Shown piece after piece: positions 889 through 47,114 of a DNA stretch of 49,669 nucleotides. Numbering within the stretch: the stretch's first letter is position 1; every line of letters begins with the position of its first letter. The stretch lies in the NCBI GenBank assembly GCA_001767435.1, contig MEKT01000198.1, forward strand, positions 1 through 49,669, given 5' to 3'. The notes below the pieces were generated by a model, which was not told the origin of the DNA, did no database searches, and saw nothing but the letters and a program-made list of their open reading frames with translations. The stretch is from Acidobacteria bacterium RIFCSPLOWO2_02_FULL_65_29. GTDB lineage: Bacteria; Acidobacteriota; Vicinamibacteria; Vicinamibacterales; CAVVIG01. Made by a program: the position numbers and the translations under genes.

Positions 889-900
889 GCGTGCAGGTCC

Positions 901-930
901 GAGCCCCGAGTCCCTAGCCCCGAGTCCCGA
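901..930. repeat. Heptad array, GAGYCCC family
   Basis: About four tandem 7-bp units read on the plus strand as GAGCCCC, GAGTCCC, TAGCCCC and GAGTCCC. The sensor-kinase stop codon (914-916, minus strand) and its last few codons (residues IGTRG) lie inside the array, so the repeat supplies the end of the protein. The same unit family recurs in reverse complement at 35815-35838. Confidence 0.7.
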
Positions 931-2491
931 TTGTGAATTGAAACACCGTCCGTCCCGGTTGGCTCGTCACCGACACCCTGCCGCCGTGCCGTTCGACAAT
1001 CGCCTTGACGATGGACAATCCCAGGCCGCTGCCGCCCGACGCGCCCTGCGCGCGCGCCTGCTCGGTCTTGTAGAACCGATCGAAGACGTACGGCAGGTGC
1101 TGCGCGTCGATGCCCGGTCCCGCGTCCGTCACGCTGATCGTCACGCCTGATCGCTCGAGGCCGAAGGCGCCGGCCTCGCGGCGCGGGTGCGTCCTGAGCT
1201 CGATGTTGGTGCCTGACGGCGCGTACCGCAGCGCGTTGGCCGCCAGGTTCTGGAGCGCCTGCTCCAGGCGGTCGCGATCGCCGCGCACAACCTCGGCGCC
1301 TGGCTCGATCACGTCCGTGATGCCGACGCCGGCCTCGCGACACGCGTGCTCGTGCCTGGCTCGTACGCGCTCGAACAGCTGATCGACCGGCACGTCGCCG
1401 ATGGACAGGTCGCCGCCGCCGCCTTCGAGCCGCGCGAGATCCAACAGATCGCGGATGAGGCGCTCGAGCCGGGCCGTCTCGTCGCCGACGATGCCAAGGT
1501 ACCGCGCGCGGGTGGCCTCGTCGCCCACCAGTTCCGGCATCTTGAGCGTCTCGAGATACCCGCGCATCGCCGTCACCGGCGTGTTGAGCTCATGCGACAC
1601 ATCGGCGAGGAGCTGCCGGCGCGCGCGATCCGCCGCCGCGAGCGCGTCGGCCCGCGCCGCCAGGTCATCGGCCATCGCGTTGAACGCGCTCGCCACCGCC
1701 GCCACCTCGTCGCCGCCGCGCACCGGCGCGCGTGCGGACAGATCGCCGCCGCCCAGACGCCGTGCGGCGTTCTCGACGCCGCGCAGGCGTCGGCGCGCCG
1801 GTCCGAAGATCACCAGGGCCGCCACGAGCCCGCCGGCCACCAGGACGCCACCGGTCACGAGCGCGAAGGTGGGCGCGTAGCGCGACAGAAGGAAACTGAA
1901 TGGCGCGCGCGGCGGCACGACGACCACGCCGGCCACCTCATCGTTCAGCACGACGAACGCCGGACGCATCCGGAAGCCCGGGCCCGGGCCGAACCCGCGG
2001 CCGCCGGGCGTGGCACCGGGCCGAGGACCGGGGAAGGGACCGAGACGAGGCACGGTCCCGGAGTCCGGTCCAAGGCTCCCGCGGCCAGGCTCGGGGCCGC
2101 CCGGCGTCGCGCCAGGGCTGGCTCCCGGATCGAAGCCGCCGCGGCCGCGTCCGAAGCGGCCGCGGCCGAACCGATCGAAGCCGGGCGGCGGCCGCCGCTC
2201 GAGCATCGCGCGCGCCTGCGCGAGGAGCTCATCGGGAAGCTTTCCACCGTTCCCGGCCAGGCGCCCATCGGTCATCAGCACGAGAACGGGATGCGCGTCG
2301 CGACCGTACTCCTCGCCGACGAAGCGCGCCAGATCGAGCGCCGGCTCTCGCTCGAGCGCCGCCGAGATTTCCGCAGCCACTGTTTCGGCGAATCGTTCTG
2401 GAGGCTGTCCCGGCGCGGTCGGTCCCGTGCGCGACGCGACCCAGAGAAAGAGCAGCGCCTGCACAACGAGCATCGCCGCGAGGCACACCAT
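914..2491 (-). CDS. Membrane sensor histidine kinase (HAMP-HisKA-HATPase)
   Basis: Predicted inner-membrane two-component kinase of 525 residues. An N-terminal membrane segment (about 1-20) is followed by an extracytoplasmic loop that is strikingly Gly/Pro/Arg-rich (about 105-177, with [12 protein letters not shown]). A second membrane segment lies at about 205-230, then HAMP (about 235-288), HisKA with the phospho-acceptor in VSHELNTP (about 300) and the ATPase with N-box [11 protein letters not shown] and G-boxes DAGPGID and GSGLGLSI. No response regulator is adjacent, so the partner is unknown. The frame stays open upstream of the ATG, to a CTG at 2536 that overlaps the TGA of the DnaA-like gene (CTGA); starting there would add LTWYRSLFWRTALGF, a more usual kinase N-terminus. 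Translational coupling to that gene is likely. The C-terminus runs into a heptad array. Confidence 0.93.
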
Positions 2492-2823: not shown

Positions 2824-2954
2824 GGAAATTTCAGAGTTCAGAGTTCAGAGCTCAGATTTGAAATGCCCGGTCCGCTGCCAGAAATCTGAAGTCTGCAATC
2901 CCACTCTCAACTCCAACTCTGAACTCTGAAGTCTGAAGTCTGAAGTCTGAAATT
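2824..2954. repeat. Heptad array forming a long imperfect hairpin (TCTGAAG / TCAGAGT)
   Basis: The whole spacer between the RRM stop (2955) and the DnaA-like start (2823) is low-complexity. The left part has units TCAGAGT and TCAGAGC; the right part has TCTGAAG repeated in register about four times. The two halves are approximately reverse complementary, and both ends carry GAAATTTCA, so the transcript could fold into one long imperfect hairpin. It directly abuts the RRM stop codon. Confidence 0.75.
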
Positions 2955-3566
2955 TCACTCTTCTGTCTCCTTGTCCTTGTCCTTGTCCTCTTCCTCTTTC
3001 GGCTTGCTCGTCGCGAAATCGTCGATGTCCGGCACGGCTTCATCCCCCGCGTCGGCATCGTCGAGCGTGAAGGAGCGCCCGGTGACTTTCATCGGGATGG
3101 GTCCGCGCGGGCGATCGGCGTCCTTCTTCTTGGCCTTCGAGCCAGGGCCACGCTGCGGTTTCGCGTCGGGCCCGAAGTTACGGTTGCGCGACGAGGGTGG
3201 CGCGGCAGGGTCGAAGGGCCGCTGGGCGCCGCCAAACGATCCCGGAGGACGCGGCGCGAAGCCGCCCGGACGCGGGCCCGAGAAGCCGCCCGGACGCGGG
3301 CCGCCGGGCCCGCGATCCTCACGCGCGCGCGCTTCGCTGACGGCGAGCGGCCGTCCGTTGAACGCCTGGCCGTTGAACTTCTGAATCGCCTGCTCAGCGT
3401 GTGAGCGCTCCAGGAACTCGACGAAGGCGAATCCGCGAGGCCGGCCCGTCTCGCGATCGACGGGCAGCACGACCTGCGACGGCGGGGCGACCGCGGCGAA
3501 GTAGGCGCGCAGCTCCGCGTCGGTTGTGGTGTACGACAGGTTGCCGACAAAGAGACGAACAGCCAA
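2955..3566 (-). CDS. RRM-domain RNA-binding protein with Gly/Pro/Arg-rich tail
   Basis: This is a 203-residue bacterial RNA-recognition-motif protein. Residues 1-80 form one RRM with RNP2 LFVGNL (5-10) and RNP1 RGFAFVEF (about 45-52). The rest is low-complexity: an RGG/PGG-like stretch (GGPRPGGFSGPRPGGF), a Lys-rich patch, then an acidic DKDKDKETEE end. Small RRM proteins bind single-stranded RNA and often affect mRNA stability or cold adaptation; the target here is unknown. The start is a TTG at 3566 preceded by AGGAGAG at about 8 nt, which decides the start. It is the first gene of a minus-strand run RRM, DnaA-like, sensor kinase. The disordered tail suggests multivalent RNA contacts (inference). 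Confidence 0.92.
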   Translation of the reverse strand: MAVRLFVGNLSYTTTDAELRAYFAAVAPPSQVVLPVDRETGRPRGFAFVEFLERSHAEQAIQKFNGQAFNGRPLAVSEARAREDRGPGGPRPGGFSGPRPGGFAPRPPGSFGGAQRPFDPAAPPSSRNRNFGPDAKPQRGPGSKAKKKDADRPRGPIPMKVTGRSFTLDDADAGDEAVPDIDDFATSKPKEEEDKDKDKETEE

Positions 3567-3756: not shown

Positions 3757-5415
3757 ATGATGAGGCGTCGGATCGGCGCGTGCGTGTTGGCGGGGCTTCT
3801 GGCAGGTCTGGCGCCCGTGGCGGGAGCCCCCGGCGCGGCCTCCATCAGCGTCGACGACCTGAAGACGTGGCTCACATACATCGCGTCGGACGAGCTGCAG
3901 GGCCGGGACACCTATTCGGCCGGGCTGGGCCTCGCGGCGGGCTACATCCAGGAGCATTTGCGCCGGTTCGGTGCGGAACCCGACGGTGATCCCGGCCAGT
4001 ACCTCCAGGCCGTGCGCGTCCTTGGCGTGAAGGCGACGAGCCGATCGTCGGTGACCGTCAAGGTCGGCACCGAGACACGGACGTTCAAGGACGGCGAGGG
4101 CGTGACGTTTCCGAGGAACGCCGGCGCGACGCGCACCTTCACGGTGGACCGCGTCGAGTTCGCCGGTTACGGACTGGACGTGCCGGCGGCGAACCACATG
4201 GACTACCGGGGCAAGGACGTCACGGATGCCGTGGTGATCTTTCTGGGTGCGTCGGGCCCGCGCGGCGTGGAGAGGTCCACCTACGGGCGTGTGTTCGCCG
4301 GCCGCAATCGCTACGCCACGGATCAGAAGCGGGCGGCCGCGAGCATCGGTCCCGAGGGGTCCGTGGCGGGTCGGGGCCGGGGCGCCGGCGCCGACAGAGG
4401 GCCGGGGCGAGGGCGTGGGGCGTCGACGCCCGATTTCACGACGGCCCAGCGGCTCGATCGACAGGCTGCGCCGAGCCTGACGGCGAGCGACGCGTTCTTC
4501 ACGTTCCTCTTCAGCAGATCGAACGCGAAGTACGAGGACCTCACCCGTATGGCCAAGGCGCGCGGCGCGCTGCCGTCGTTCAGGCTGGACGGCGTATCGA
4601 TCACGTTCGACATCGATGTGAGCTACGAGGTCGTCCGCACGCAGTTGACCCACAACGTGGTCGCCGTGATCGAGGGCGGCGATCCCCGCCTCAAGCACAC
4701 CTACGTGGCGTTTGGCGCTCACTACGACCACGTGGGCTATTCCGACGGACAGCCAGGCGGGCGGCCGCCGGGCCGCGTGGCGTCAGACGCCTCGGCCGAT
4801 CGCATCTGGAACGGGGCCGACGACGACGGGTCGGGAACCGTGGCGCTGATGGCGCTGGCGAAAGCGTTTGCCGAAGGGCCGCGGCCGAAGCGCTCGCTGC
4901 TCTTCGTCTGGCACGCCGGCGAGGAGCGCGGCCTGCTGGGATCGCGCTACTTCGCCGACTATCCCACGGTGCCGATGGAGAACATCGTGGCGCAGCTGAA
5001 CGTCGACATGATCGGGAGGAACCGCGACGACAAGCCGGAGGAATCGAACACGGTGTACCTCGTGGGGTCCGATCGCATCAGCAGCGAGCTGCACGAGATC
5101 AACCGCGAGGCGAATCGGGCGCTGGTCTCGCCGCTCACGCTCGACTACGAGATGAACGACCCGGCCGATCTCGAGCAACTCTACTACCGGAGCGATCACG
5201 ACAGCTACGCGGCCACCGGTATTCCCGTCATTTTCTTCACGAGCGGCCTTCACGCGGATTACCACGCGAACACCGACGAGGTGTCGAAAATCGAGTTCGA
5301 GAAGCTGGCGAGCATTACGCGGCTTGTGTACGAGACCGGCTGGCGCGTGGCGAACCTCGACCACGCCCCTGCGAGGGACAACAAGGGTCCGCGCGCCGGC
5401 AGGGAGACGCGGTGA
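3757..5415 (+). CDS. Secreted M28-family zinc aminopeptidase
   Basis: This is a 552-residue exported metallopeptidase. A signal peptide covers about residues 1-27 (cleavage near AGAPGAAS). The M28 catalytic domain lies at about 300-530 with the zinc and catalytic motifs in order: HYDHVGY (about 322), NGADDDGSGT (about 352), HAGEERG (about 385), NVDMIGRN (about 414) and the final histidine region in SGLHADYHANTDE (about 493). A Gly/Arg-rich low-complexity loop (GRGRGAGADRGPGRGRG) sits near residue 205 ahead of the catalytic domain. The family removes N-terminal amino acids from peptides outside the cytoplasm. The ATG at 3757 is preceded by GGAAGGG. The next gene is a second peptidase, suggesting a peptide-degradation unit. 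Confidence 0.94.
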   Translation: MMRRRIGACVLAGLLAGLAPVAGAPGAASISVDDLKTWLTYIASDELQGRDTYSAGLGLAAGYIQEHLRRFGAEPDGDPGQYLQAVRVLGVKATSRSSVTVKVGTETRTFKDGEGVTFPRNAGATRTFTVDRVEFAGYGLDVPAANHMDYRGKDVTDAVVIFLGASGPRGVERSTYGRVFAGRNRYATDQKRAAASIGPEGSVAGRGRGAGADRGPGRGRGASTPDFTTAQRLDRQAAPSLTASDAFFTFLFSRSNAKYEDLTRMAKARGALPSFRLDGVSITFDIDVSYEVVRTQLTHNVVAVIEGGDPRLKHTYVAFGAHYDHVGYSDGQPGGRPPGRVASDASADRIWNGADDDGSGTVALMALAKAFAEGPRPKRSLLFVWHAGEERGLLGSRYFADYPTVPMENIVAQLNVDMIGRNRDDKPEESNTVYLVGSDRISSELHEINREANRALVSPLTLDYEMNDPADLEQLYYRSDHDSYAATGIPVIFFTSGLHADYHANTDEVSKIEFEKLASITRLVYETGWRVANLDHAPARDNKGPRAGRETR

Positions 5416-5428
5416 AGGCCATTCGAAA

Positions 5429-5455
5429 CCACGAAGGCGCGAAGACACGAAGAAG
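5429..5455. repeat. Octad array, CACGAAG family
   Basis: Three 8-bp units (CCACGAAG, GCGCGAAG, ACACGAAG) and a partial fourth begin 13 nt after the M28 stop. The same unit occurs at 39372-39395, and a 7-bp version at 26573-26600. Confidence 0.65.
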
Positions 5456-6686: not shown

Positions 6687-7859
6687 ATGGCAGGAACGTT
6701 ATTGACGCGCCCGCTCTTCATCATCTTCCTGACGATCTTCGTCAATCTCGTCGGGTTCGGCATCATCATCCCCCTGCTGCCGTTCTACGCGGAGACGTTC
6801 GGCGCCTCGCCGTTCGACATCGGCCTGCTCTTCGCGGTGTTTTCCCTCTGCCAGCTGTTTGCGGCGCCGGTGCTCGGCGACTGGTCCGATAGATATGGCC
6901 GCCGGCCCATCCTCGTGTTGAGTCTGGCCGGCACGGTCGTCAGCTTCGTCATGCTCGCGCTCGCTCAGAACGTCGCCATGCTCTTCCTGGCGCGGGCGGT
7001 CGACGGCTTGTCGGGCGGCAACATCTCCACCGCCCGCGCGTACGTGGCCGACGTGACCGAGCCGAGCGATCGCGCGCGCGCCTACGGGCTCATCGGCGCG
7101 GCGTTCGGCCTCGGGTTCATTCTGGGCCCGGCCCTGAGCGCCGTGCTGGCGACGATCAGTATCACGACGCCCATCTGGGCGGCGGCCGGACTCACGCTCG
7201 CCGCCACGGTGATGGCGTGGCTGTGGCTTCCTGAGACGGTGCATCGCGCGAATGCCGCAACGGGGCTGCCGTTCCGACATCTCGCGGCGATGCTCAAACG
7301 GCCGGGCCTTCGCCGAGTGCTCGCGATCGATTTCAGCTACTGGTTCGCCTTCGCCGTGTTTCAGACCACGTTCGCGCTCTTTGCGTCGAGGCGCTTCAAC
7401 TTCGACGCGTCGCAAACTGGCTACTTCTTCGCGGGGTTCGGCGTGCTCGGCGCCGTCGTGCAGGGCGTATTGATCAGGCCCATCGTGAGCCGGTTTGGCG
7501 ACAAGCGAACCTTCATGGTCGGACTGGTGTGCGGGGCCGTCGGGCTCGTGGCGACGACGCTCGCGCACTCGGTCACGCTGTTTGCGCTCTCGCTCGTGCC
7601 GCTCGCGCTGGGCATCGGCTTCGGACATCCAACGATGACGAGCCTCGTGAGCCGCGCGGCCCGAGGCGACGAGCAAGGCCGCGTGCAGGGCGCCGCGAGC
7701 GCGGTCGAAAGCCTCGGGCGGACGATCGGTCCGGTCTGGGGGAGCGCGTCGCTGCAGCGGTTTGGCGAAGGGATGCCGTACGTCACCGCCGCCGGACTGT
7801 TGGTGATCACACTCCTGCTGAGCATCGGATATCAGGTGACGGAGGCAGTCGACAACTAG
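6687..7859 (+). CDS. MFS drug-efflux transporter (TetA-like)
   Basis: This is a 390-residue major facilitator with about 12 membrane segments. The N-terminus (FVNLVGFGIIIPLLPFYAE) and motif A in loop 2-3 (GDWSDRYGRRP, about 66-76) are typical of the TetA / multidrug proton-antiporter branch. A motif C-like glycine/proline pattern lies in segment 5 (AFGLGFILGPALS). The substrate cannot be read from sequence. ATG 6687 has no clear ribosome site; a TTG at 6702 preceded by AGGAAC is an alternative start. No cognate TetR is adjacent. The stop is followed within 3 nt by a heptad array. Confidence 0.92.
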   Translation: MAGTLLTRPLFIIFLTIFVNLVGFGIIIPLLPFYAETFGASPFDIGLLFAVFSLCQLFAAPVLGDWSDRYGRRPILVLSLAGTVVSFVMLALAQNVAMLFLARAVDGLSGGNISTARAYVADVTEPSDRARAYGLIGAAFGLGFILGPALSAVLATISITTPIWAAAGLTLAATVMAWLWLPETVHRANAATGLPFRHLAAMLKRPGLRRVLAIDFSYWFAFAVFQTTFALFASRRFNFDASQTGYFFAGFGVLGAVVQGVLIRPIVSRFGDKRTFMVGLVCGAVGLVATTLAHSVTLFALSLVPLALGIGFGHPTMTSLVSRAARGDEQGRVQGAASAVESLGRTIGPVWGSASLQRFGEGMPYVTAAGLLVITLLLSIGYQVTEAVDN

Positions 7860-7862
7860 CAG

Positions 7863-7899
7863 TCAGCTCTCAGCTTTCAGCTCCCAGTCGTCAGCTCTC
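7863..7899. repeat. Heptad array, TCAGCTC family
   Basis: Five 7-bp units in register (TCAGCTC, TCAGCTT, TCAGCTC, CCAGTCG, TCAGCTC) start 3 nt after the MFS stop codon. There is no coding potential. Confidence 0.7.
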
Positions 7900-7930
7900 A
7901 CATTAACTACCGTTGAACGTCACGAGCGCG

Positions 7931-13313: not shown

Positions 13314-14831
13314 ATGAGCAGCAAGTCGGCCCTTCCGGCAGGATTCGTCATCCTGCTGATTTCCTTCAGCAGCCTCGCGGCTCTCGCCGCCGACCAGCGG
13401 CTCATCCAGGCCGTGCGGCGCGGATCGATGGAGACGGCGCGCGAGCTGATCAAGCAGCGCATCGAGGTGAACGCTCCGCAATCCGATGGCACGACGGCGC
13501 TGCACTGGGCCGTCGAGGTCGACAACCGCGAGATGGTGTCGCTGCTCGTCGGCGCTGGTGCGGATGTGAATGTCGCCAGCGACTTCGGTGTGACGCCTCT
13601 GGCGCTGGCCAGCAGAAACGGCAGCGCGGCCATCGTCAGCATTCTGTTGCGGGCCGGCGCCAACGTGAACACGGCGCTGCGGACGGGAGAAACGCCGCTC
13701 ATGACGGCCGCACGCACTGGACGTGCAGAGGTCGTGGACGCGCTGCTGGAAGCCGGTGCCAATCTGAATGCCAAGGAACCCGAAGCCGGTCAGACGGCCC
13801 TGATGTGGGCGATTGCCGAGGGACATACCGAGGTCGTGCGTACGTTGATCACGCACGGAGCGAATGTGCGCGAAGCGTCGCGGCGCGGCTTCACACCACT
13901 GCTGTTCGCGGCGCGCAACGGCGACGTCGAGACGACGCGGGCGTTGCTCGCCGCTGGCATCGACGTGAACGACGCCTCTGGCGACGGCACGACGGCGTTG
14001 ACGATTGCCACGATTCGGAGTCAAGTCGCCTACGCGAAATTCTTGCTCGATCTGGGGGCCGATCCGAACAAGGGTCCAGGGTTCACGCCGATCCACTGGG
14101 TCGTTGGTGATTGGGACGTCGAGCTCGCCGGCGACAAGACGCATGTGAGGCCCGAAGGGACGGAGTGGGACCTCACGCTGCCGCTGAAAGGAAAGGCCCG
14201 GCTGGACTACCTGACGTTGCTGCTCGATCGCGGCGCCGACGTGAACGCCAAAGCCCAGTCGACGCCCCGCGTCGCGGTGGGTACGGGTGGGGGCGGTCGT
14301 GGTGGCGGCGGTCGCGGCGGGAAGACCGAAGGCGCGACGGCGTTCTTCATGGCCGCCCAGTTGGCTGATGTTCCCCTGATGCGGTTTCTTCTTTCGAAGG
14401 GCGCTGATCCGCTGGCGAGGACCGCTCGAAATGTGTCGCCGTTGATGGCCGCCGCGGGCGTCGACTCCAATACGGAGATCGGCTATACCGGCGTCGCCGA
14501 GGCCGACGCGGTGGAAGCGATCAAGCTCTGCCTCGAGCTGGGCGACGATGTCCACACGGTCAGCACGTACGGCGAGAACGCGCTGCACGGTGCGGCGTAC
14601 CGGGGAAACGCGGGCTCGAACAAGATCGCCCAGTTGTTCCTGGATCGCGGCGTCCAAGTCAACGTGATCAACAAGCGGGGCTGGTCGCCCGTGACGCTGG
14701 CCGAAGGGATCTACACGAACAACAGCAATAGTCGGAATCCCGATCTCGAGCGTCTCCTGCTCGAGCACGGCGGTCGGCCCAGTCCGCCCGGCATCGAACG
14801 CGACGCGTACGCGGTCATTGTCGAGCGCTAG
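13314..14831 (+). CDS. Exported ankyrin-repeat protein
   Basis: This is a 505-residue protein with a signal peptide (about 1-26, VILLISFSSLAALAA) and about ten ankyrin repeats, with motifs such as GTTALHWAVEVDNREMVSLL and GADVNVASDFGVTPLALA. A Gly/Arg-rich insert (GTGGGGRGGGGRGGK, about 323-337) breaks the array. Exported ankyrin proteins beside DUF1592/DUF1552 genes probably act as protein-binding scaffolds in the periplasm; the partner is unknown. ATG 13314 has GAGGAG 4 nt upstream, which decides against the earlier start at 13272. The DUF1592 gene begins 13 nt after its stop, so the two are almost certainly cotranscribed. Confidence 0.92.
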   Translation: MSSKSALPAGFVILLISFSSLAALAADQRLIQAVRRGSMETARELIKQRIEVNAPQSDGTTALHWAVEVDNREMVSLLVGAGADVNVASDFGVTPLALASRNGSAAIVSILLRAGANVNTALRTGETPLMTAARTGRAEVVDALLEAGANLNAKEPEAGQTALMWAIAEGHTEVVRTLITHGANVREASRRGFTPLLFAARNGDVETTRALLAAGIDVNDASGDGTTALTIATIRSQVAYAKFLLDLGADPNKGPGFTPIHWVVGDWDVELAGDKTHVRPEGTEWDLTLPLKGKARLDYLTLLLDRGADVNAKAQSTPRVAVGTGGGGRGGGGRGGKTEGATAFFMAAQLADVPLMRFLLSKGADPLARTARNVSPLMAAAGVDSNTEIGYTGVAEADAVEAIKLCLELGDDVHTVSTYGENALHGAAYRGNAGSNKIAQLFLDRGVQVNVINKRGWSPVTLAEGIYTNNSNSRNPDLERLLLEHGGRPSPPGIERDAYAVIVER

Positions 14832-20073: not shown

Positions 20074-20087
20074 TCTCTGATCTCTGA
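20074..20087. repeat. Short heptad pair TCTCTGA
   Basis: Two perfect 7-bp units lie in the 39-nt spacer between two convergent genes, 21 nt after the MBL stop and 4 nt before the permease stop. Confidence 0.5.
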
Positions 20088-24426: not shown

Positions 24427-25467
24427 ATGGCCAAGCGATTGATCGTGCTGCTTCTGGCCGCCACCGCAGGCACTGGCGCCTATACGTATTTCAACCGGCC
24501 TCCCACCTCCCTCGTGCTCACCGGTATCGTCACCACCCATGACGTGGTCGTGAGCTCGCAGATTGGCGGCAGACTCGAGCGACTCGCCGTGCAGGAGGGC
24601 GACACGGTCACCCGGGATCAAGTACTGGCCGTGATCGCCCCCGACGAGCTCAGGGCGGAGAGCTCGTACGCCTTGGCCAATGCGCAGGGCCTGTCGTCGC
24701 AGGTGCAGGAGGCCGCGGCGGCCTTGCGCTTCGAGCAGAAGCAGACGGTGGAACAGATTCGGCAGGCCGAGTCGAACGCCGCGGCCATCGAGGCGCAGCA
24801 CGCGGCGGCGGTGGCGGACTCCGAGAACGCTCGGCTCAATTTCGAGCGCACCCGCAGCCTGTCGGCGCAGGAGCTGGCGCCGGCGTCCCAGCTCGACCAG
24901 GCGCGCACGGCGTATGAGGCGGCACAGGCGCGCGTGGATGGGCTGAACAGGCAGGTCGACGGCCAGCGGGCAGCCGTGGCGCTGGCTCGTGCCAACAGCG
25001 AGCAGATCGCCGCGAAGGAGAGTCAGGTGCAGGCGAACGAGCACCTGCAGGCCGCGGCCGACGCGCAGCGCACCAAGGCGGACGTCCGCCTCGCCTATTC
25101 CGAAATCCGGGCGCCGATCGACGGAATTGTCGACGTGCGAGCCGCGCGCACGGGCGAGGTGGTGAACCCGGGGCAGCCGGTCGTGACGCTGATCGATCCC
25201 GACGACCTCTGGGTCCGGGCGGACGTCGAAGAGACCTACATCGATCGCGTGAAGAATGGCGACTCCCTGACAATCCGGCTGCCCTCGGGCGTCGAGGTCC
25301 AGGGGGTCGTGTTCTACCGCGGCGTCGACGCGCAGTTCGCGACGCAGCGCGACGTGAGCCGGACCAAGCGCGACATCAAGACGTTCGAAATCCGGCTGCG
25401 GTGCGACAACACCGAACGGCGGCTCGCCGTCGGCATGACGGCGTACGTGCTGTTACCGCTTCAGTGA
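24427..25467 (+). CDS. HlyD-family membrane-fusion protein of an ABC exporter (YbhG-like)
   Basis: This is a 346-residue periplasmic adaptor anchored by an N-terminal membrane helix (about 4-20). A lipoyl-like half-domain (GGRLERLAVQEGDTVTRDQVLAV) leads into a long alpha-helical hairpin (about 75-205, many Gln/Glu/Ala), then the second lipoyl half (IRAPIDGIVDVRAARTGEVV) and a beta-barrel domain (WVRADVEETYIDRVKNGD). Such proteins link an inner-membrane ABC pump to an outer-membrane exit duct. No TolC-like gene is in the window. It is the first gene of the operon HlyD, ATPase, permease, TetR, the layout seen in Escherichia coli ybhGFSR with CecR. Confidence 0.93.
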   Translation: MAKRLIVLLLAATAGTGAYTYFNRPPTSLVLTGIVTTHDVVVSSQIGGRLERLAVQEGDTVTRDQVLAVIAPDELRAESSYALANAQGLSSQVQEAAAALRFEQKQTVEQIRQAESNAAAIEAQHAAAVADSENARLNFERTRSLSAQELAPASQLDQARTAYEAAQARVDGLNRQVDGQRAAVALARANSEQIAAKESQVQANEHLQAAADAQRTKADVRLAYSEIRAPIDGIVDVRAARTGEVVNPGQPVVTLIDPDDLWVRADVEETYIDRVKNGDSLTIRLPSGVEVQGVVFYRGVDAQFATQRDVSRTKRDIKTFEIRLRCDNTERRLAVGMTAYVLLPLQ

Positions 25468-25550
25468 CAGGGCACAGGGCAGACAAAGGGCAAAGGGCAG
25501 AGGGCAGACTGCGCAAGCTGATGGCTGAGAGCTGATGGCTGAGAGCTGAC
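25468..25550. repeat. Two heptad arrays inside the efflux operon
   Basis: Immediately after the HlyD stop, units of the form NAGGGCA run to 25508. From about 25516 a second array alternates GCTGATG and GCTGAGA in strict 7-bp register up to the ATPase ATG at 25551. The last unit merges with the start region, and there is no separate Shine-Dalgarno sequence, so the repeats occupy the ATPase translation-initiation region. Confidence 0.75.
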
Positions 25551-26540
25551 ATGAGTGCAATCGACGTTCGAAACATCGTCAAGACATTCGGCGACTTCAC
25601 CGCCGTCAAGGGCATCAGCTTCACGGTGGAGAAAGGCGAGATCTTCGGGCTTCTGGGCCCGAACGGCGCCGGCAAATCGACGCTCATCCGCATGTTGACG
25701 ACGCTTCTGCCGCCGACCTCGGGGACGGCGCTCGTGAACGGATTCGACGTCGTGAAGCAGGCCGATGGCGTGCGCCATTCGATTGGCGTCATCCCGCAGG
25801 CGATGACGAGCGACCTCGAGCTGAGCGTCGAAGAGAACCTCATGTTCTACGCGAAGCTCTACGGCGTGCCGCGCGAGAAACGTGCGCGCCTGATGGCCGA
25901 GCTCCTCGACGCCGTCGAGCTGACCCAGTGGCGCGACAAGCAGGTCAAAAAACTCTCGGGCGGCATGCGGCGCCGCGTGGAAATTGCCAGGGGTCTGATG
26001 CACGAGCCGCGCATCTTCTTTCTCGACGAGCCGACCACAGGCCTCGATCCGGTGTCGCGCGTCGCGGTCTGGGAGATGCTCAGGAAGATCAAAGCGCAGC
26101 GCGATCTGAGCGTGCTCATCACGACGCACTACATGGACGAAGCCGACAAGCTCTGCGACCGGATCGCCATCGTCGATCACGGCGAGCTGAAGGCGCTCGA
26201 CTCGCCGCTGACGCTCAAGGCGTCGATTCCGGGCAAGAACATGCTCGAGGCGAGCTTTTCGCCAGTGCCGTCGGATTGGGAAGGGACGCTCCGGATTCTC
26301 CCAGGCGTCGAAGAGGTGACGCGCCACGACAACGTGTTCCGTCTGGCGTCCACCAACGGTCCGGCGACGACGATGGCGCTCATGGAGCGCGCGGAACGCG
26401 CGCAGGTGGCGGTGCAGTCGCTCGGGGTCCAGAGCACGACGCTCGACGACGTGTTCGTGCATTACACGGGACGGGCGCTGCGCGACGCGTTGCAGGAGGC
26501 GTCGCCGCAGGACAGTCCGTTCATGATCAGGAGAGGCTAG
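25551..26540 (+). CDS. ABC exporter ATP-binding subunit
   Basis: This is a 329-residue ATPase of the drug/ABC-2 exporter class. Walker A GPNGAGKST (about 36-44), Q-loop in IPQAMTSDLELS, signature LSGGMRRRVEIARGL (about 133-147), Walker B IFFLDEPTTGLD (about 154-165) and the switch histidine in ITTHYMDEAD are all intact. A C-terminal regulatory extension of about 80 residues (DUF4162-like) follows. It powers the ABC-2 permease encoded next. The start lies at the end of a heptad array without an obvious ribosome site, and the stop TAG is part of the next array. Confidence 0.94.
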   Translation: MSAIDVRNIVKTFGDFTAVKGISFTVEKGEIFGLLGPNGAGKSTLIRMLTTLLPPTSGTALVNGFDVVKQADGVRHSIGVIPQAMTSDLELSVEENLMFYAKLYGVPREKRARLMAELLDAVELTQWRDKQVKKLSGGMRRRVEIARGLMHEPRIFFLDEPTTGLDPVSRVAVWEMLRKIKAQRDLSVLITTHYMDEADKLCDRIAIVDHGELKALDSPLTLKASIPGKNMLEASFSPVPSDWEGTLRILPGVEEVTRHDNVFRLASTNGPATTMALMERAERAQVAVQSLGVQSTTLDDVFVHYTGRALRDALQEASPQDSPFMIRRG

Positions 26541-26600
26541 AGGCTAGAGGTTGGGGACCCTGAGACCTGACCCACGACGCACGGAGCACGAAGAACGTGG
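26534..26600. repeat. Heptad arrays between ATPase and permease genes
   Basis: AGGCTAG occurs twice in tandem (26534-26547) followed by AGGTTGG; the first unit contains the ATPase stop codon TAG (26538-26540). After a short gap, CACGACG, CACGGAG and CACGAAG (26573-26593) form a second array of the CACGAAG family just before the permease. Confidence 0.7.
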
Positions 26601-26614
26601 AACGACGAGGTTTC

Positions 26615-35814: not shown

Positions 35815-35838
35815 GGCTCGGGGCTCGGGACTCGGGAA
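35815..35838. repeat. Heptad array, GAGYCCC family (reverse complement)
   Basis: Three 7-bp units (GGCTCGG twice, GACTCGG) are the reverse complement of the family at 901-930. This array lies upstream of the ankyrin promoter, not after a stop codon, and is one of two positional exceptions. Confidence 0.65.
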
Positions 35839-36047
35839 GATTCGTCCGGCACAGCGAGGCACTCTCGGCGGCTTGAGGCGAAGCTTCGCTAGCGTGGACC
35901 ACACGAGCGTGCCGGCCCAGCCAGCCTGCGCCGGTTGCGGTGTCGTATCACCCTATGTCAGAATTTGTGAACGAGCCGGTCCGGTCACGGACCAAGCACT
36001 CGACGTTCATCATCAACCTATCGATTTCGAACGAGGAGACGGGATAC

Positions 36048-36461
36048 ATGCGTCGTGCATCGAATGCTGCGATGGTCGGATCGGTCCTGGCTTTTGTCGC
36101 TCTTGTGGCCGTGAGCCTGTCGGCCCAAGGCAACGGCGGCAGCGCCGAGGGCCGCAAGATGAAAAACCCGGTGGCATCGAGTGCGGCATCGATCACTGCC
36201 GGCAAGGCCGCCTATCAGAAGTATTGTCGCTTCTGCCACGGTGCCGAGGCGCTCGGCGACGGCCCGTCTGCGCCGAAGGACTCGCACCCCTCGGATCTCA
36301 CGGACAAGGTATGGACTCGGGGGTCGACCGACGGCGAGATCTTCGTGATCCTGCGCGACGGCGCCGGTCCAAAGTTCGACATGAAGGGCTTCAAGGGCCG
36401 GATGGCCGACACCGACATGTGGAACGTCGTCAACTTCATCCGCAGCATCGCGAAGAAATAG
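36048..36461 (+). CDS. Exported mono-haem cytochrome c
   Basis: This is a 137-residue protein with signal peptide (about 1-25, ending SLSAQG) and one c-type haem site CRFCH (about 61-65). A distal Met is available in GAGPKFDMKGFKGRM. The length and final helix (DMWNVVNFIRSIAKK) match class I periplasmic cytochromes c that pass electrons to oxidases. ATG 36048 has ACGAGGAG upstream. It stands alone between a divergent ankyrin gene and the MNT/HEPN pair and could accept electrons from the quinoproteins farther downstream (inference). Confidence 0.9.
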   Translation: MRRASNAAMVGSVLAFVALVAVSLSAQGNGGSAEGRKMKNPVASSAASITAGKAAYQKYCRFCHGAEALGDGPSAPKDSHPSDLTDKVWTRGSTDGEIFVILRDGAGPKFDMKGFKGRMADTDMWNVVNFIRSIAKK

Positions 36462-36504
36462 ACGCCCCGGCCAGGAAGACACGAAGGATCCGTTGACGTC
36501 GCTG

Positions 36505-36635
36505 TCGGCTCTCAGCCGTCGGTTCTCGGCCACGCCAGTCGACAATTGACAGTCGACAATGAACAGGTCCCTCAACTGTCAACTGTGAACGTTGGCTGTC
36601 AACCTCACTGATAGCTGATCGCTGATGGCTGACGG
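36505..36635. repeat. Composite heptad region, about 19 units of several families
   Basis: Successive blocks keep a 7-bp period while the unit changes: TCGGCTC-type (36505-36532), GTCGACA / ATTGACA (36538-36565), AACTGTC / AACTGTG (36574-36594) and CTGATAG / CTGATCG (36608-36635). The second and third blocks are partly complementary (GACAGT with ACTGTC), so they can pair. It starts 43 nt after the cytochrome stop. Confidence 0.78.
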
Positions 36636-36792
36636 CACCTCATCACGAGGGGCGTACGCTTGCCGACCGTCTCGAGGCGGGGGCGATTCCTGTCGTGAGG
36701 GGAATGGACGCGCGGCGGCAACGGCCGCCGTTGAAGTCGTGCGTTCTCGATGATTCCTATCGCGTTAGTCCGAGTCGGCCTGGCCGGGACGA

Positions 36793-36798
36793 TATACT
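36793..36798 (+). promoter_or_regulatory. -10 box of a possible leaderless MNT/HEPN mRNA
   Basis: TATACT ends 6 nt before the ATG at 36805, so the transcript should begin at the start codon. No -35 consensus and no Shine-Dalgarno sequence are visible. Confidence 0.5.
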
Positions 36799-36804
36799 AC
36801 GAGC

Positions 36805-37140
36805 ATGCAGGTGGCTTCGAACAGACGAGCGGCGCTGGCGGAGTTCGTGAAGCGGCTGCGTGAAGCCCTGCCTGCAAACCTGCAGGACGTGCGATTGTTC
36901 GGGTCTGAAGCTCGCGGTGAGGCGACGCCCGAGTCCGACATCGACGTGCTTGTCGTCGTCCAACCCGACCTGGAGCGCGTCCGGCTCGAGGACCGCATCA
37001 TCGATCTTGCGTTCGATGTCAATCTCGACTTCGGCGTCTACATCTCGCCCCGCGTGGTGACCCCCGGAATTCTGAACGATCCGGTATGGGGCGAGACGCC
37101 GTTCCTCAAGAACGTGGCCCAGGAAAGTATTCGGTTGTGA
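36805..37140 (+). CDS. MNT nucleotidyltransferase antitoxin
   Basis: This is a 111-residue minimal nucleotidyltransferase. The active-site signature LFGSEARGEATPESDIDVLV (about 31-50) has the GSxxRG helix and both metal-binding aspartates of DxD, so it is probably active. In the MntA/HepT systems the MNT protein neutralises the HEPN partner by transferring AMP to it. Its stop overlaps the GTG of the HEPN gene (GTGA), the usual order and coupling of such pairs. The region around it (heptad spacer on one side, pseudogene on the other) looks like accessory DNA. Confidence 0.92.
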   Translation: MQVASNRRAALAEFVKRLREALPANLQDVRLFGSEARGEATPESDIDVLVVVQPDLERVRLEDRIIDLAFDVNLDFGVYISPRVVTPGILNDPVWGETPFLKNVAQESIRL

Positions 37141-39320: not shown

Positions 39321-39371
39321 GCGCGCGTAACCTTAGCATAGCGAAGCCGGCGCGGATGTTATGATCGCGAG

Positions 39372-39395
39372 CCACGAAGACACGAAAGCACGAAA
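39372..39395. repeat. Octad array, CACGAAG family
   Basis: Three 8-bp units (CCACGAAG, ACACGAAA, GCACGAAA) lie 12 nt before the ATG of the quinoprotein fragment. The family is the same as at 5429-5455. It lies between divergent genes, so it is an exception to the 3'-end rule. Confidence 0.65.
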
Positions 39396-39407
39396 AAGAC
39401 TGAACCT

Positions 39408-43276: not shown

Positions 43277-43282
43277 ATTATA
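43277..43282 (-). promoter_or_regulatory. -10 box of the NHL gene next to an octad array
   Basis: TATAAT (minus strand, 43282-43277) lies 30 nt before the GTG. The octad array immediately upstream reads TTGAGG or TTGAGA every 8 bp on this strand, resembling repeated -35 hexamers; TTGAGA lies at 19-nt spacing. Confidence 0.55.
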
Positions 43283-43285
43283 AAT

Positions 43286-43317
43286 CCTCAACTCCTCAAG
43301 TTCTCAAATCCTCAAAT
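43286..43317. repeat. Octad array, CCTCAANT family
   Basis: Four 8-bp units (CCTCAACT, CCTCAAGT, TCTCAAAT, CCTCAAAT) lie 7 nt beyond the PQQ-dehydrogenase stop and just upstream of the NHL promoter. The larger array of the same family is at the other end of that gene. Confidence 0.72.
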
Positions 43318-43324
43318 CGTCGTG

Positions 43325-45301
43325 CTACGGCAGGCTGAGCGCCACGAATTCGGCCGGATGCTGCTGCCCGCCGATGGCAAAGGTGATGTACTGCTTGCCC
43401 TTGTGCAGATAGGTCATCGGCGCGCCGGTGGCGCCCGCCTCGAGCTTGGCGTCCCAGATCGTCCGACCAGTCGCCTTGTCGAGCGCGCGGACCATCGTTC
43501 CGCCGCCAAGCGGCGGCGTCCGCACGCTGATCTGATCGCCCTCGGTCACGAAGAGCAGCGTCTTTGTCACGAGCGGCGCGGCGCGCACGGCCTGGCCGAG
43601 CGGCGGCAGGTTGAGGTGCTTGATGGCGGGATGATCGCGCGGGCCGTTGCCGTTCGCCACCATCCAAACCTGTTCCCCCCGATTCAGATCGATCGCGGTG
43701 ACGCGACCGTATGGCGGCTTGAGCAGCGGCAGGCCGCGCGGCCCCTGGATGAGCTCGCGCGTCGACGCGCGGTACCGCAGGTTGGTCTGCTTGGGATCGC
43801 CCGGCAAGAGGTTCGAGACAAAAGGATTGGTCATCGACGGCACGTACAGCATGCCCGTCTCCGGATCGAACCCGGCGCCGGTCCAGTCTGCGCCGCCAAC
43901 TGAGCCGGGCACCTGGATCGTGCCTTTCTTATCGTTCGGGCCCTGGCCCGCCACCGACGGCGGTGTGAACACTGGCCCCGTGACGTAGTTCTTCACGATC
44001 TCGATCGCCTCGGCGCGCAGTTCCGGCGTGAAGTCGATCAATTGATCGATCGAAATGCCCTGCGTGTCGAAGGGCGGCGGCCTGGTGGGCACCGGCTGCG
44101 TCGGCGATGCCTTCTCGCCAGGCACCGTGGAGGATGGGGCCGGACGCTCTTCGATCGGCCACACCGGCTGACCGGTGACGCGGTCGAGCACGAACGCGAG
44201 CGATTGCTTGGTCACCTGCGCGACAGCCTTGATTCGCCTCCCATGCACCGTGATGTCGGCGAGGATCGGGGCCGCGGGGTTGTCGTAGTCGAACAAGTCG
44301 TGATGGACGGTCTGGAAGTGCCACACTTTCTTGCCGGTTGTCGCGTCCAGGCAGACGATCGATGAACTGTACAGGTTGTCGCCGAGGCGGTGGCCGCCGT
44401 ACATGTCGTTGGTCACGCTCGTCGTCGGCAAGTACACGTAGCCCAGCTCGTCGTCGGCGCTCATGAGCGACCAGACGTTGCCGGCGCCCGTGTACGCCCA
44501 GGATTCGCCTTCCCATGACTCCACCCCGGCTTCGCCTGCGCGCGGGATCACGCGCCAGATCCAGCGGAGCTTTCCCGTGCGCACATCGAACGCGCGCACG
44601 TCGCCAGGCTCGCCTTCCATCTTCGACGCCGAATCCTGATCGACCATCGACGAGCCCATCACGACGACGTCGCGGACGACGAGCGGAGCGGCGTTCCAGC
44701 GGTAGGTTCCAGCCAGCGGGCCCAGACCGGAGTTGAGATCGACACGGCCGCCGGCGCCGAAGCTGGTGAGGGGCGCGCCGGTTTTCGGATCGAGCGCGTA
44801 CAGATAGCGGCTGCGATAGGTCAGGATCCGCGCGGCGTTGTCTCCGGCCGTCCGGCTTCCCGGATCGGGAGACCAGTACGCGACGCCGCGGTTCGAGGTG
44901 CCGGGCAGGAGCGGCTCGGCGTCAGGCCGCTGGATCCACAGCGGACGTCCTGTCTCGGGATCGAGCGCTTCGACGAGGCCGACGCCGTTCGATGCGTACA
45001 GCACGCCGCCCACCATGATCGGCGTCGAGCGGAAATTATTCTGGAGCGTGAGCGCCGGATTCTTGGCGGTGATGCTTGGGTCAACCTGCGGATGCCGCCA
45101 CGCCACGCGCAGACGTCCGACGTTGGCGGCGTTGATCTGATCGAGCGGCGAGTACTTCATCGAGCCGTTGTCGCCCGAATACCGCCGCCACTCGCCGTTG
45201 GCCGTGTCGTTCGTCGCCGCGGGCAGTGAAACGACCGCGAGGGCCACGACCCCCGCCCCGCACGCCGCCGCCCATCGCCACCATCGCCAGCCGGTCGTCA
45301 T
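43325..45301 (-). CDS. Secreted PQQ-dependent dehydrogenase
   Basis: This is a 658-residue quinoprotein. A signal peptide or anchor covers about 8-30 ([17 protein letters not shown]). The propeller starts with [20 protein letters not shown], and tryptophan-docking repeats recur ([39 protein letters not shown]). The last text is typical of the glucose / membrane-type branch, HHDLFDYD and [14 protein letters not shown]. No CxxCH is present, so electrons leave through a separate cytochrome or quinone. The substrate is probably a sugar or alcohol. ATG 45301 has GGAG directly upstream and lies at the edge of an octad array; a second octad array follows the stop. Confidence 0.9.
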
Positions 45302-45425
45302 CTCCAAATCCTCAAATCTCTCCAAATCCTCAACTCCTCAAATCCTCAAGTCCTCAGGTCTCTCGAAATCCTCAACTCCTCAAATCCTCAAGTCCTCAAT
45401 TCCTCAATTCCTCAATTCCTCAAAT
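45301..45425. repeat. Long octad array, CCTCAANT family (15 units)
   Basis: Fifteen units, thirteen of them exactly or nearly 8 bp and two 10 bp, fill the space from the dehydrogenase start to 10 nt from a fragmentary quinoprotein stop. The variable base is mainly position 7 (A, C, G or T); CCTCAATT is repeated three times in a row. A block of four units is duplicated (from 45318 and from 45360), showing recent array growth. Confidence 0.85.
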
Positions 45426-45632: not shown

Positions 45633-47114
45633 GTGGCCGTCGCAGCCGTCGCCGCGGCCGCCAGCCTGGTCGACGTGCGTGGCGCGACGGTGCCCATGCC
45701 CACCGTGACCGGGCCGCTCGGCGCATCAGCGGCTGGCGATCCAGCCCGTGACTACCCGCTCAACGCCAGTGTCGTCGATCTGAAGGGGCGCGGGTACCTC
45801 GAGCAGGAGTTCTTCATCGAGGGTACGGCGAGCCGATTCACGACTCCGCCGCAGGCGACCGGCACGGTCGTCGACGGTGGCCATCCGTACAAGACTCGGA
45901 TCATCGTGCGCCGGCCGGCCACGGCGGCACGGTTCAATGGAACGGTCCTCGTCGAATGGAACAACGTGACGGCGGGCCGCGACCTGGACATCGACTGGTT
46001 CCAGACCTACGACCACCTGACGCGATCCGGCTACGCGTGGGTTGGCGTGACGCCGCAGTGGGTTGGTGTCGGGGCGCTGAAGGCGTGGAGCCCGGCGCGC
46101 TACGGCACGTTGAACGTGACGCACGGTGGAACCTTGGCGAACGACGAGCTGTCCTACGACGTGTTCTCCCAGGCCGGCCAGGCCGTGCGAAACCCGGGGG
46201 ACGTGAATGTGATGGGTGGGCTCAGGGTCGAGCGCGTGTTCGCAACCGGCCACTCGCAGTCTGCCGGCCGCCTCGGCACCTACGTCAATTCCGTGCACCC
46301 GCTCGGCAAGGTGTTCGACGCGGTGATTCTGCACGGCGGCGGTGGCCGCGTGCGCGCCGATCTCGACATCCCCGTGTGGAAGCTGTTGGCGGAGACCGAC
46401 GTGCAGAACCAGGCGGCGAATCGGCAGCCCGACACGAAGCTGTTCCGCACGTGGGAAGTGGCCGGGAGCTCGCACGTCGACCTGCGGTTCAGAACCTACT
46501 CGACGCAGTTTGGTCCGAGGGATGGGAGCCCGACGGCTCCGGGGTTCGTGTCTGCCGCCTCGCGGGGCGCGCCGCCCTCCGGTTCAGCGACGGGTCCATC
46601 GCGCGGCGCGGCGGCTGGCGGAGTTCCCTCGCTCGGCGCTTCGCCCTCATCCGGTACGAGAGGGACGACGGGTGCCCCTGGCTGCGACCGGCCATCGTAC
46701 AGCCACATCCCGTTCTATCAAGTGTTCAACGCCGCCATCGATCACCTCGTGCGCTGGGCGAAGGACGGCACGCCGCCGCCAAGCGCACCGCCCCTCGAGA
46801 TCGCGACCGTCGGGCCGCCGGCGGTGATAGCGCGCGACGCCGACGGCAACGCGCTCGGCGGTATTCGCCTGTCGCAGCACGCCGTGCCGACCGCGGTGAA
46901 CACGGGTGTGAATACCGGTCCCGGCTTCTGCCGGCTCAACGGCTCGCACGAGCCGTTCACGGCTGATCGGCTCGCCTCGCTGTATCCCTCGCACGCAGCC
47001 TACGTCGGGGCGGTCAAAGAGGTGGCGGCGCGGAATCTCCGGGCTGGATACATTCTGAAGGTCGACGCCGACGCGACGATTGCGGAAGCGGAGCAGTCGA
47101 ATCTCGGACGCTAG
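45633..47114 (+). CDS. Exported alpha/beta-hydrolase domain protein
   Basis: This is a 493-residue protein with signal peptide (about 1-18) and the alpha/beta-hydrolase_10-type domain found in acidobacterial and actinobacterial esterases. The nucleophile elbow is GHSQSAG (about 203-209). Other family text includes GTVLVEWNNVTAGRDLDIDW and YAWVGVTPQWVGVG. A low-complexity Gly/Ser/Pro loop (about 305-350) interrupts the C-terminal half. GTG 45633 is chosen because it follows GGAG and gives a normal signal peptide; the open frame runs back through the octad array, which is not coding. Probably a secreted ester hydrolase of unknown substrate. Confidence 0.88.
   Translation: MAVAAVAAAASLVDVRGATVPMPTVTGPLGASAAGDPARDYPLNASVVDLKGRGYLEQEFFIEGTASRFTTPPQATGTVVDGGHPYKTRIIVRRPATAARFNGTVLVEWNNVTAGRDLDIDWFQTYDHLTRSGYAWVGVTPQWVGVGALKAWSPARYGTLNVTHGGTLANDELSYDVFSQAGQAVRNPGDVNVMGGLRVERVFATGHSQSAGRLGTYVNSVHPLGKVFDAVILHGGGGRVRADLDIPVWKLLAETDVQNQAANRQPDTKLFRTWEVAGSSHVDLRFRTYSTQFGPRDGSPTAPGFVSAASRGAPPSGSATGPSRGAAAGGVPSLGASPSSGTRGTTGAPGCDRPSYSHIPFYQVFNAAIDHLVRWAKDGTPPPSAPPLEIATVGPPAVIARDADGNALGGIRLSQHAVPTAVNTGVNTGPGFCRLNGSHEPFTADRLASLYPSHAAYVGAVKEVAARNLRAGYILKVDADATIAEAEQSNLGR

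Follow-up and report, generated by a model that had tools for sequence, protein, structure and literature searches.

The intergenic gaps of the genome studied here carry arrays of 7- and 8-nt units far beyond chance, and many of these arrays are one arm of a quasi-palindrome. Whole-block differences between congeners at the same place were directly observed. Neither the palindromic pairing nor this presence and absence of blocks between species was among the observations of the first-pass annotation, which had described short-period arrays planted at stop codons. Across genera, a site is characterised by its period more than by its sequence. On balance, we lean towards reading many of the arrays as arms, or half-arm remnants, of small non-coding quasi-palindromic dispersed elements that would have been inserted in trans and reshaped by unit slippage.

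Periodic arrays in the window and in its genome

The window, the whole 49,669-nt stretch of DNA that was analysed, is contig C198 of a 5.5-Mb draft genome (G000; 239 contigs, 97% complete). It was studied together with 20 stretches of 20 kb from the same genome, 450 kb in all. Arrays were detected with Tandem Repeats Finder (TRF) and a purpose-made lag detector. Genes were called with a simple codon-usage caller, which gave 36 genes in the window; a Pfam family was found on the called strand for all 10 of these 36 that were checked. Eleven of the 12 arrays previously listed for the window were found again in place by one or other detector (Table 1), while the 14-nt array at 20074-20087 was reported by neither.

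The focal site is a nested palindrome with TCAGCCG-type units outside and CAGTCGA/TCAACTG units inside. Copies of it, loop included, lie at three other sites of the genome (contigs C74, C191 and C27) with 84-90% identity over 99-117 nt. The longest array of the window, 45305-45425, has a PQQ dehydrogenase gene on one side (43325-45301, minus) and an alpha/beta hydrolase gene on the other (45633-47114, plus); both assignments come from Pfam. A gene for a short protein with an RRM_1 RNA-recognition domain (2955-3566, minus) adjoins the palindromic TCTGAAG arrays.

Table 1. Repeat arrays of the window and the gene preceding the focal palindrome
Positions	Strand	Feature	Context or source
899..930	.	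CCGAGTC-type heptamers	over stop of histidine kinase gene 914-2491 (minus); TRF/lag detector, Pfam
2830..2951	.	palindromic pair TTCAGAG / CTCTGAA	gap 2824-2954; inverted-repeat score 25
5424..5453	.	CACGAAGA octamers	8 nt past stop of 3757-5415
7858..7900	.	TCAGCTC heptamers	overlap stop of 6687-7859
25467..25549	.	AGGGCAA and GCTGATG heptamer arrays	fill gap between HlyD-like and ABC transporter genes (Pfam)
26532..26604	.	AGAGGCT heptamers and degenerate period-7 stretch	over stop of 25551-26540
35815..35837	.	GGCTCGG heptamers	divergent gap, no stop
35940..36461	+	cytochrome c-type gene	Pfam Cytochrome_CBB3; stop 44 nt before focal element
36505..36531	+	outer left arm, TCGGCTCTCAGCCGTCGGTTCTCGG, period 7	TRF 36504-36531; pairs with right outer arm
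36533..36565	+	inner left arm, CAGTCGA/CAATTGA-type heptamers	lag detector
36572..36604	+	inner right arm, TCAACTG heptamers	reverse complement of inner left arm
36608..36636	+	outer right arm, CTGATAG/CTGATCG/CTGATGG heptamers	lag detector
39370..39396	.	CACGAAAA octamers	divergent gap, no stop
43282..43321	.	CAAATCCT octamers	between two minus-strand genes
45305..45425	.	CAAATCCT octamer array, 14.6 units	upstream of two divergent genes, not at stop

The 450 kb contain 241 intergenic gaps (about 46 kb), and 107 of them carried a period-7 or period-8 array. There were 176 such arrays against about 5 expected from shuffling: 111 of period 7 and 65 of period 8, where dinucleotide shuffles gave 2.2 and 2.7. 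The rise was smaller at periods 9, 11 and 12 (12, 18 and 11 arrays against 1.4, 1.5 and 2.0 shuffled), and with the lag detector periods 4, 5, 6 and 10 were close to chance in these gaps. The same detector returned 24 period-7 and 22 period-8 arrays from 400 kb of genes. Lags 7 and 8 gave base identities of 0.301 and 0.290 for tandem gaps, 0.338 and 0.333 for convergent ones and 0.305 and 0.283 for divergent ones; genes, at about 0.264, showed no rise. The lag-7/8 excess that the first-pass annotation had proposed to look for is therefore present in the gaps of this genome and absent from its genes. The arrays are real and widespread, and chance is excluded. The source being a 239-contig draft, single loci could still be misassembled; for the class, however, an origin in chance or assembly is refuted by the roughly 36-fold excess over shuffles and by similar arrays in relatives that were assembled independently and in distant phyla.

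Inverted repeats with a score of at least 14 were detected in 35 of the 94 array gaps of 40-420 nt, against 3.7 after shuffling. Gaps without arrays also showed some excess (22/105 against 7.7). The other 59 of the 94 array gaps had no strong inverted repeat, so that not every array is paired, and among 32 array gaps with such repeats that were inspected, seven proved to be N runs or non-array palindromes.

The earlier claim that no one repeat sequence accounts for the arrays holds, the unit varying while a period of 7 or 8 is kept. Among arrays scoring at least 10 in G000, counted by exact units, the AACTGTC class made up 19 of 102 with period 7 and the AAATCCTC class 25 of 57 with period 8. 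The 20-mer GAGGATTTGAGGATTTGAGG, from the GGATTTGA family, has 247 copies in G000 and 0-5 copies per genome among the 161 others searched from the order (any copy in 8/162). In the CACGAAG family six positions (TTCGTG) are near-constant and two vary. The sorting of units into 14 families was loose, allowing up to 2 mismatches in any rotation and on either strand, and was in part forced. The common units GGATTTGA, CAGTTGA, TAGTCGA, GAAGTTA and CACGAAG contain no run of three G; the minority units AAGGGCA and GGGACTC have one. Seven relatives were also sampled, six by 40-80 kb. Arrays with other units were found in the samples of G010 and G007, 6 and 2 arrays (fewer for the DNA sampled) in those of G013 and G003, and none in those of G015, G019 and G004, the last covering only 20 kb. 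The same units recur at many sites within a genome and differ between genomes, and unit number shifts by whole units.

Position relative to stop and start codons

Ten arrays had been described as beginning in or near the stop of a gene. Nine of them, a count that includes the unconfirmed 20074-20087, do lie at a called stop or no more than about 45 nt from one; the tenth, 45301-45425, lies between called starts. In the larger sample the bias is real: where a tandem gap measured 150 nt or longer, the array block sat closer to the stop than to the start in 22 of 25 cases. Where it measured 200 nt or longer, arrays covered 14% of the 10 nt next to the stop and 0% of the 10 nt next to the start. 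Arrays were present in 22 of the 38 gaps between convergent genes and in 18 of the 47 between divergent ones (p 0.08). Array frequency is thus not equal at starts and stops, but gaps bounded only by starts commonly hold arrays, and the expression 'planted at stop codons' is overstated. It is also weakened by an alternative that it overlooks, namely that a block inserted into a tandem gap is tolerated on the stop side.

In the four largest families the unit nearest the stop was strand-biased in the sense of the gene (GGATTTGA 15:2, TAGTCGA 14:5, GAAGTTA 12:3, CACGAAG 9:3); in the smaller families of G000 the strand was mixed near stops. A candidate rule, with octamers after TGA and heptamers after TAG or TAA, was rejected. 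It fitted the ribosomal operon table, where TGA preceded 27 of 35 octamer and 8 of 48 heptamer arrays (p 3e-8, operon cells not being independent), as well as G000 (17/22 against 14/48, p 2e-4), but failed in a third set, G043, G045 and G007 outside the operon (5/10 against 20/49, p 0.73). Four stop-codon differences between congeners agree with it (L2, L6, S5 and S11), and there are exceptions both among octamers, found after TAA (L36, G044), and among heptamers, found after TGA (S13, L4, G043). The association is regarded here as a property of some unit families, the GGATTTGA unit itself containing TGA, and not as a rule.

Ribosomal operon junctions and block differences between congeners

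The ribosomal operon was surveyed in 26 genomes of the family, giving 395 readable junction cells. A gap of more than 20 nt was present in 185 of these, and 106 of the 185 held an array with a period between 5 and 12: 48 arrays at 7, 35 at 8, 12 at 9, 7 at 12, 3 at 6 and 1 at 11. Hence hairpin blocks can be placed repeatedly in an essential operon, between a stop codon and the ribosome-binding site that follows, and be tolerated there. Five of the seven period-12 arrays lie in the S4-RpoA gap and probably come from a conserved GC-rich leader. This leader (CCCGCAGCCTT, CAGACCTGCGGCGGGAGG, GCAGGTCTGGAGGCCCGTCTG) precedes rpoA in the 15 genomes where S4-RpoA was read (for example at about 14110-14240 of L105) and is perhaps a structured RNA leader.

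Three junctions never held an array, L16-L29 (0/11), L24-L5 (0/12) and Adk-Map (0/24), and all are short or overlapping in every genome read. Protection by gene overlap alone is excluded by L4-L23, L6-L18, L15-SecY and IF1-L36, which have -4 overlaps in some genomes and arrays in others. Arrays restricted to a single genome were found at L23-L2 (1/10) and L29-S17 (only G000 of 11), and S5-L30 carries an octamer array only in G045 of 14 genomes, plus a period-9 array in G001.

Pairs of arrays at the same junction in different genera (periods 7-9) had the same period in 150 of 240 cases. This compares with 99.0 +- 7.5 when periods were shuffled within genomes and with 104.2 +- 8.2 when they were shuffled among arrays with the same stop codon, no shuffle in 5000 reaching the observed value in either test. 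When two arrays at one junction had the same period, their units were identical in 1.3% of cases and the mean unit distance was 0.359, compared with 0.386 within a genome and 0.419 otherwise, so that units show some likeness by site and some by genome. The earlier remark that the period is kept where the unit changes is supported in the operon, where between genera a junction shares its period far more than its sequence. Common descent with drift of the unit would give such a shared period, as would a preference of period classes for conserved gene ends.

Gain and loss of blocks were followed in three congeners, G043, G044 and G045, which share roughly 80-95% DNA identity. The alignments of G043 to G044 and G045, 243 kb summed over overlapping loci and less in unique sequence, contained 55 indel events. 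Fourteen were set aside (longer than 200 nt, or less than 25 nt net), and the 41 indels of 25-200 nt were classified. Arrays of period 7-9 were present in 23 of the 41, and 18 of these 23 had an inverted repeat. The array indels were intergenic in 21 of 23 cases, 18 of the 21 lying within 15 nt of a called stop codon; 2 of 23 fell inside genes, compared with 5 of the 18 indels without arrays. The counterpart of an array block in the other congener was no insert, another palindrome or other sequence. Read by parsimony, the differences suggest gain of blocks rather than loss.

At the rpsK-rpsD (S11-S4) junction, G043 has a palindromic GGATTTGA block of 101 nt, the first bases of which belong to the stop codon; in its place G044 has TAATG and G045 has no gap. 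Gap-free forms of this junction (gap 0 or -1) occur in 6 of the 26 genomes and gapped forms in the rest, and precise loss of the block is possible there. Changes in length by whole units were found at infA-rpmJ and rpmJ-rpsM (48 nt, or 6 octamers, and 8 nt). Blocks of the GTGACTG family that are missing from G045 differ among themselves in their loops and are therefore not simple copies of one master. Concerted change across an array, suspected by eye at rpsM-rpsK where one position differs between G043 and G044 in all five units, was rejected after a systematic test over 15 orthologous arrays (2.13 against 2.02 expected).

Other sequences also differ between these congeners. In G043, period-9 palindromes of the CCACGGAGGACACGGAGG type (contig C25, 13826-13927 and 17223-17357; L092) are absent or replaced in G045, as the 7/8 ones are. 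GC-rich palindromes of a different type, such as GCGGGTCCTTTTGGACCCGC and GCAGGCCTTCAGGCCTGC (G043; L105 5261-5331, L100 5249-5373 and 12973-13003), differ between congeners and have no 7/8 period. A Y1_Tnp-type transposase gene lies between two genes of G045 (contig C106, about 14121-14468; L142, L156), with none there in G043; it is flanked by CGGGAGTC/GACTCCCG, which resemble REP ends.

Possible origins of the arrays and comparison with known systems

In the reading that we lean towards, the element would be about 60-150 bp long and consist of 7-, 8- or 9-nt units (usually 3-6, sometimes 10), a loop and the reverse-complement units. Blocks would arrive through insertion in trans, in a MITE- or REP-like manner, would survive where they interrupt neither a reading frame nor the region of a start, and may often supply the gene with its own stop triplet. 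Later slippage in units would lengthen, shorten and diverge them; if it proceeds in whole units, the period is kept while the sequence drifts. Like MITEs, the blocks mostly have terminal inverted repeats, are short, non-coding and dispersed, and differ by presence and absence, but no target-site duplication was detected (3.29 flank matches against 3.48 when re-paired, for 34 palindromes of G000 array gaps, a few of them not array stems). Like REPs and REPINs they are palindromic, multicopy and intergenic, although not every array is paired. The cognate transposase family of REPs and REPINs, Y1_Tnp (PF01797; RAYT), had no match in G000, where a gene could be missed at 97% completeness, and matches in 18 of 27 genomes of the family.

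The chief rival is that the arrays arise locally and do not move: a hairpin or short repeat present by chance at a gene end would be expanded, 7-9 nt at a step, by replication slippage and by fold-back (template-switch) copying, the period being set by an enzyme or by the hairpin and the sequence being local. This accounts best for the period shared across genera at a junction whose units differ, and it agrees both with the whole-unit length changes and with the polymerase-contact slippage that has been suggested for heptamers (Rehm 2015, PMC4692102). Local seeding does not predict the recurrence of exact units at many loci of G000, with a 20-mer in 247 copies, nor whole palindromes where congeners have abutting genes, and we regard it as possible rather than probable. 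Bolder still, and in our view unlikely, is an element class defined by unit length and geometry, in which inverted arrays of 7-, 8- or 9-nt units would enter gene ends whole and the period would be inherited per site over genera while the unit sequence is free. Such a class, if true, would imply a nucleotide-counting copying engine in many phyla, be it a polymerase, ligase or end-joining step with a 7-9-nt footprint. Reverse transcription, which the first-pass annotation had offered, found no backing: RVT_1 (PF00078) had no match in the array-bearing G043, G044, G045, G007, G010, G041 and G012, some of these drafts being 82-91% complete.

Paired arrays might instead be selected protein-binding or nucleoid sites whose position reflects regulatory or topological use. 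Units that vary at fixed positions, as in the CACGAAG family, would suit this, as would the strand bias near stops in the four largest families and the same paired architecture in Geobacter. We nonetheless judge it improbable, because many relatives have no array at the same junction, other units replace it in sister species, and few or no arrays were found in the samples of several relatives. Selection for RNA structures at mRNA 3' ends, as terminators or stabilisers, had also been put forward earlier. The focal element does fold as a hairpin (36505-36640, -55.7 kcal/mol, z -3.9), and the strand of the units is biased with respect to the gene. In the stems of tandem array gaps (score at least 12, some stems non-array), however, G-U and A-C mismatches were equal (50 and 53) and thus give no sign of pairing selected as RNA. 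No intrinsic terminator (GC stem with T run) was found in 36400-36900, the one array region scanned, and no terminator-like T run at the focal element; Rfam gave no match in the window. With blocks inside the ribosomal operon, where termination would harm, and arrays in 18 of 47 divergent gaps, this origin appears very improbable.

The STRR sequences of cyanobacteria are intergenic heptamer tandem repeats. An excess of heptamer repeats in bacterial genomes is in print without an accepted cause, in the part of the account considered here (PMC4692102), and close precedents for the present arrays exist. In Geobacter metallireducens, paired tandem 7/8-mer sites of several classes have been described (GTTGCTYN, TCTCCGTSY and MTYCTGA; Aklujkar 2009, PMC2700814). 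These sites have 3-5 tandem octamers or heptamers, with pairs at variable distance; degenerate positions, opposite-strand pairing and several unit classes are common to both systems, and MTYCTGA resembles the TCTGAAG units of the window (PMC2700814). The Geobacter pairs are far fewer (24, 21 and 8) and were interpreted, as a hypothesis, as possible IHF/HU sites; the portion of that account considered here contains neither between-species presence and absence of blocks nor a link with stop codons (PMC2700814).

The second precedent is the GGGAATC / GGGGATT heptamers of Xanthomonas and Nostoc, which have period 7, are intergenic, lie in many cases 0-50 nt from stops on the coding strand, are under-represented between divergent genes and vary in length among species (Rehm 2015, PMC4692102). 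The arrays of G000 share the period of 7, the proximity to stops and the coding-strand bias. As far as the cited text goes, the Xanthomonas/Nostoc repeats studied are one G-rich unit family, treated as a quadruplex former and lying in regions of increased stability, unlike the many units, the periods of 7, 8 and 9 and the block differences between congeners found here (PMC4692102). The TAACTGA repeats of Beggiatoaceae, Cyanobacteria and Bacteroidetes are likewise intergenic heptamers, patchy across phyla and possibly spread horizontally, but consist of one unit that in the focal genome lies mostly just upstream of starts and was interpreted as a translational site (MacGregor 2015, PMC4679880, in the part considered). 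In the P6b stem of the Nostoc trnL intron, complementary degenerate 7-nt repeats show class replacement and steps of 7, at a single intron locus, unlike here (Kaasalainen 2015, PMC4476775, likewise in part). Mycobacterial MIRUs are short, apparently mobile and inserted at gene junctions with little effect on expression (PMC12548453), and the blocks at stop-start junctions of the operon are comparable in this respect. MIRUs, however, insert at start codons, with an ORF coupled to the next gene at -4 spacing, and the section of that source considered here mentions no 7/8-nt period (PMC12548453). A literature search, judged mostly by titles and the beginnings of abstracts and with most subscription journals outside its scope, returned no closer account of multi-unit palindromic arrays gained and lost as blocks at stops.

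The family provides fast-evolving data: at fixed junctions of the ribosomal operon one can read where blocks were gained or lost, how units changed and which period is present, and the rival causes (mobile palindrome, slippage, selected site) thereby become testable. Sequences of this kind are also found far outside it. Named genomes, a collection from which the window's own genome may be omitted, contain 58 stretches with a 28-mer of the GGATTTGA family. By their titles these are mostly Bacteroidota, with Thiomargarita, Clostridium, Methanogenium, Verrucomicrobia, Gemmatales, Cedecea, Sutterella and one Acidobacteria bin also represented; the Acidobacteria contig had no BLAST match among the loci of the family with which it was compared. 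In 13 of the 58, a simple motif test places an inverted partner no more than 160 nt away.
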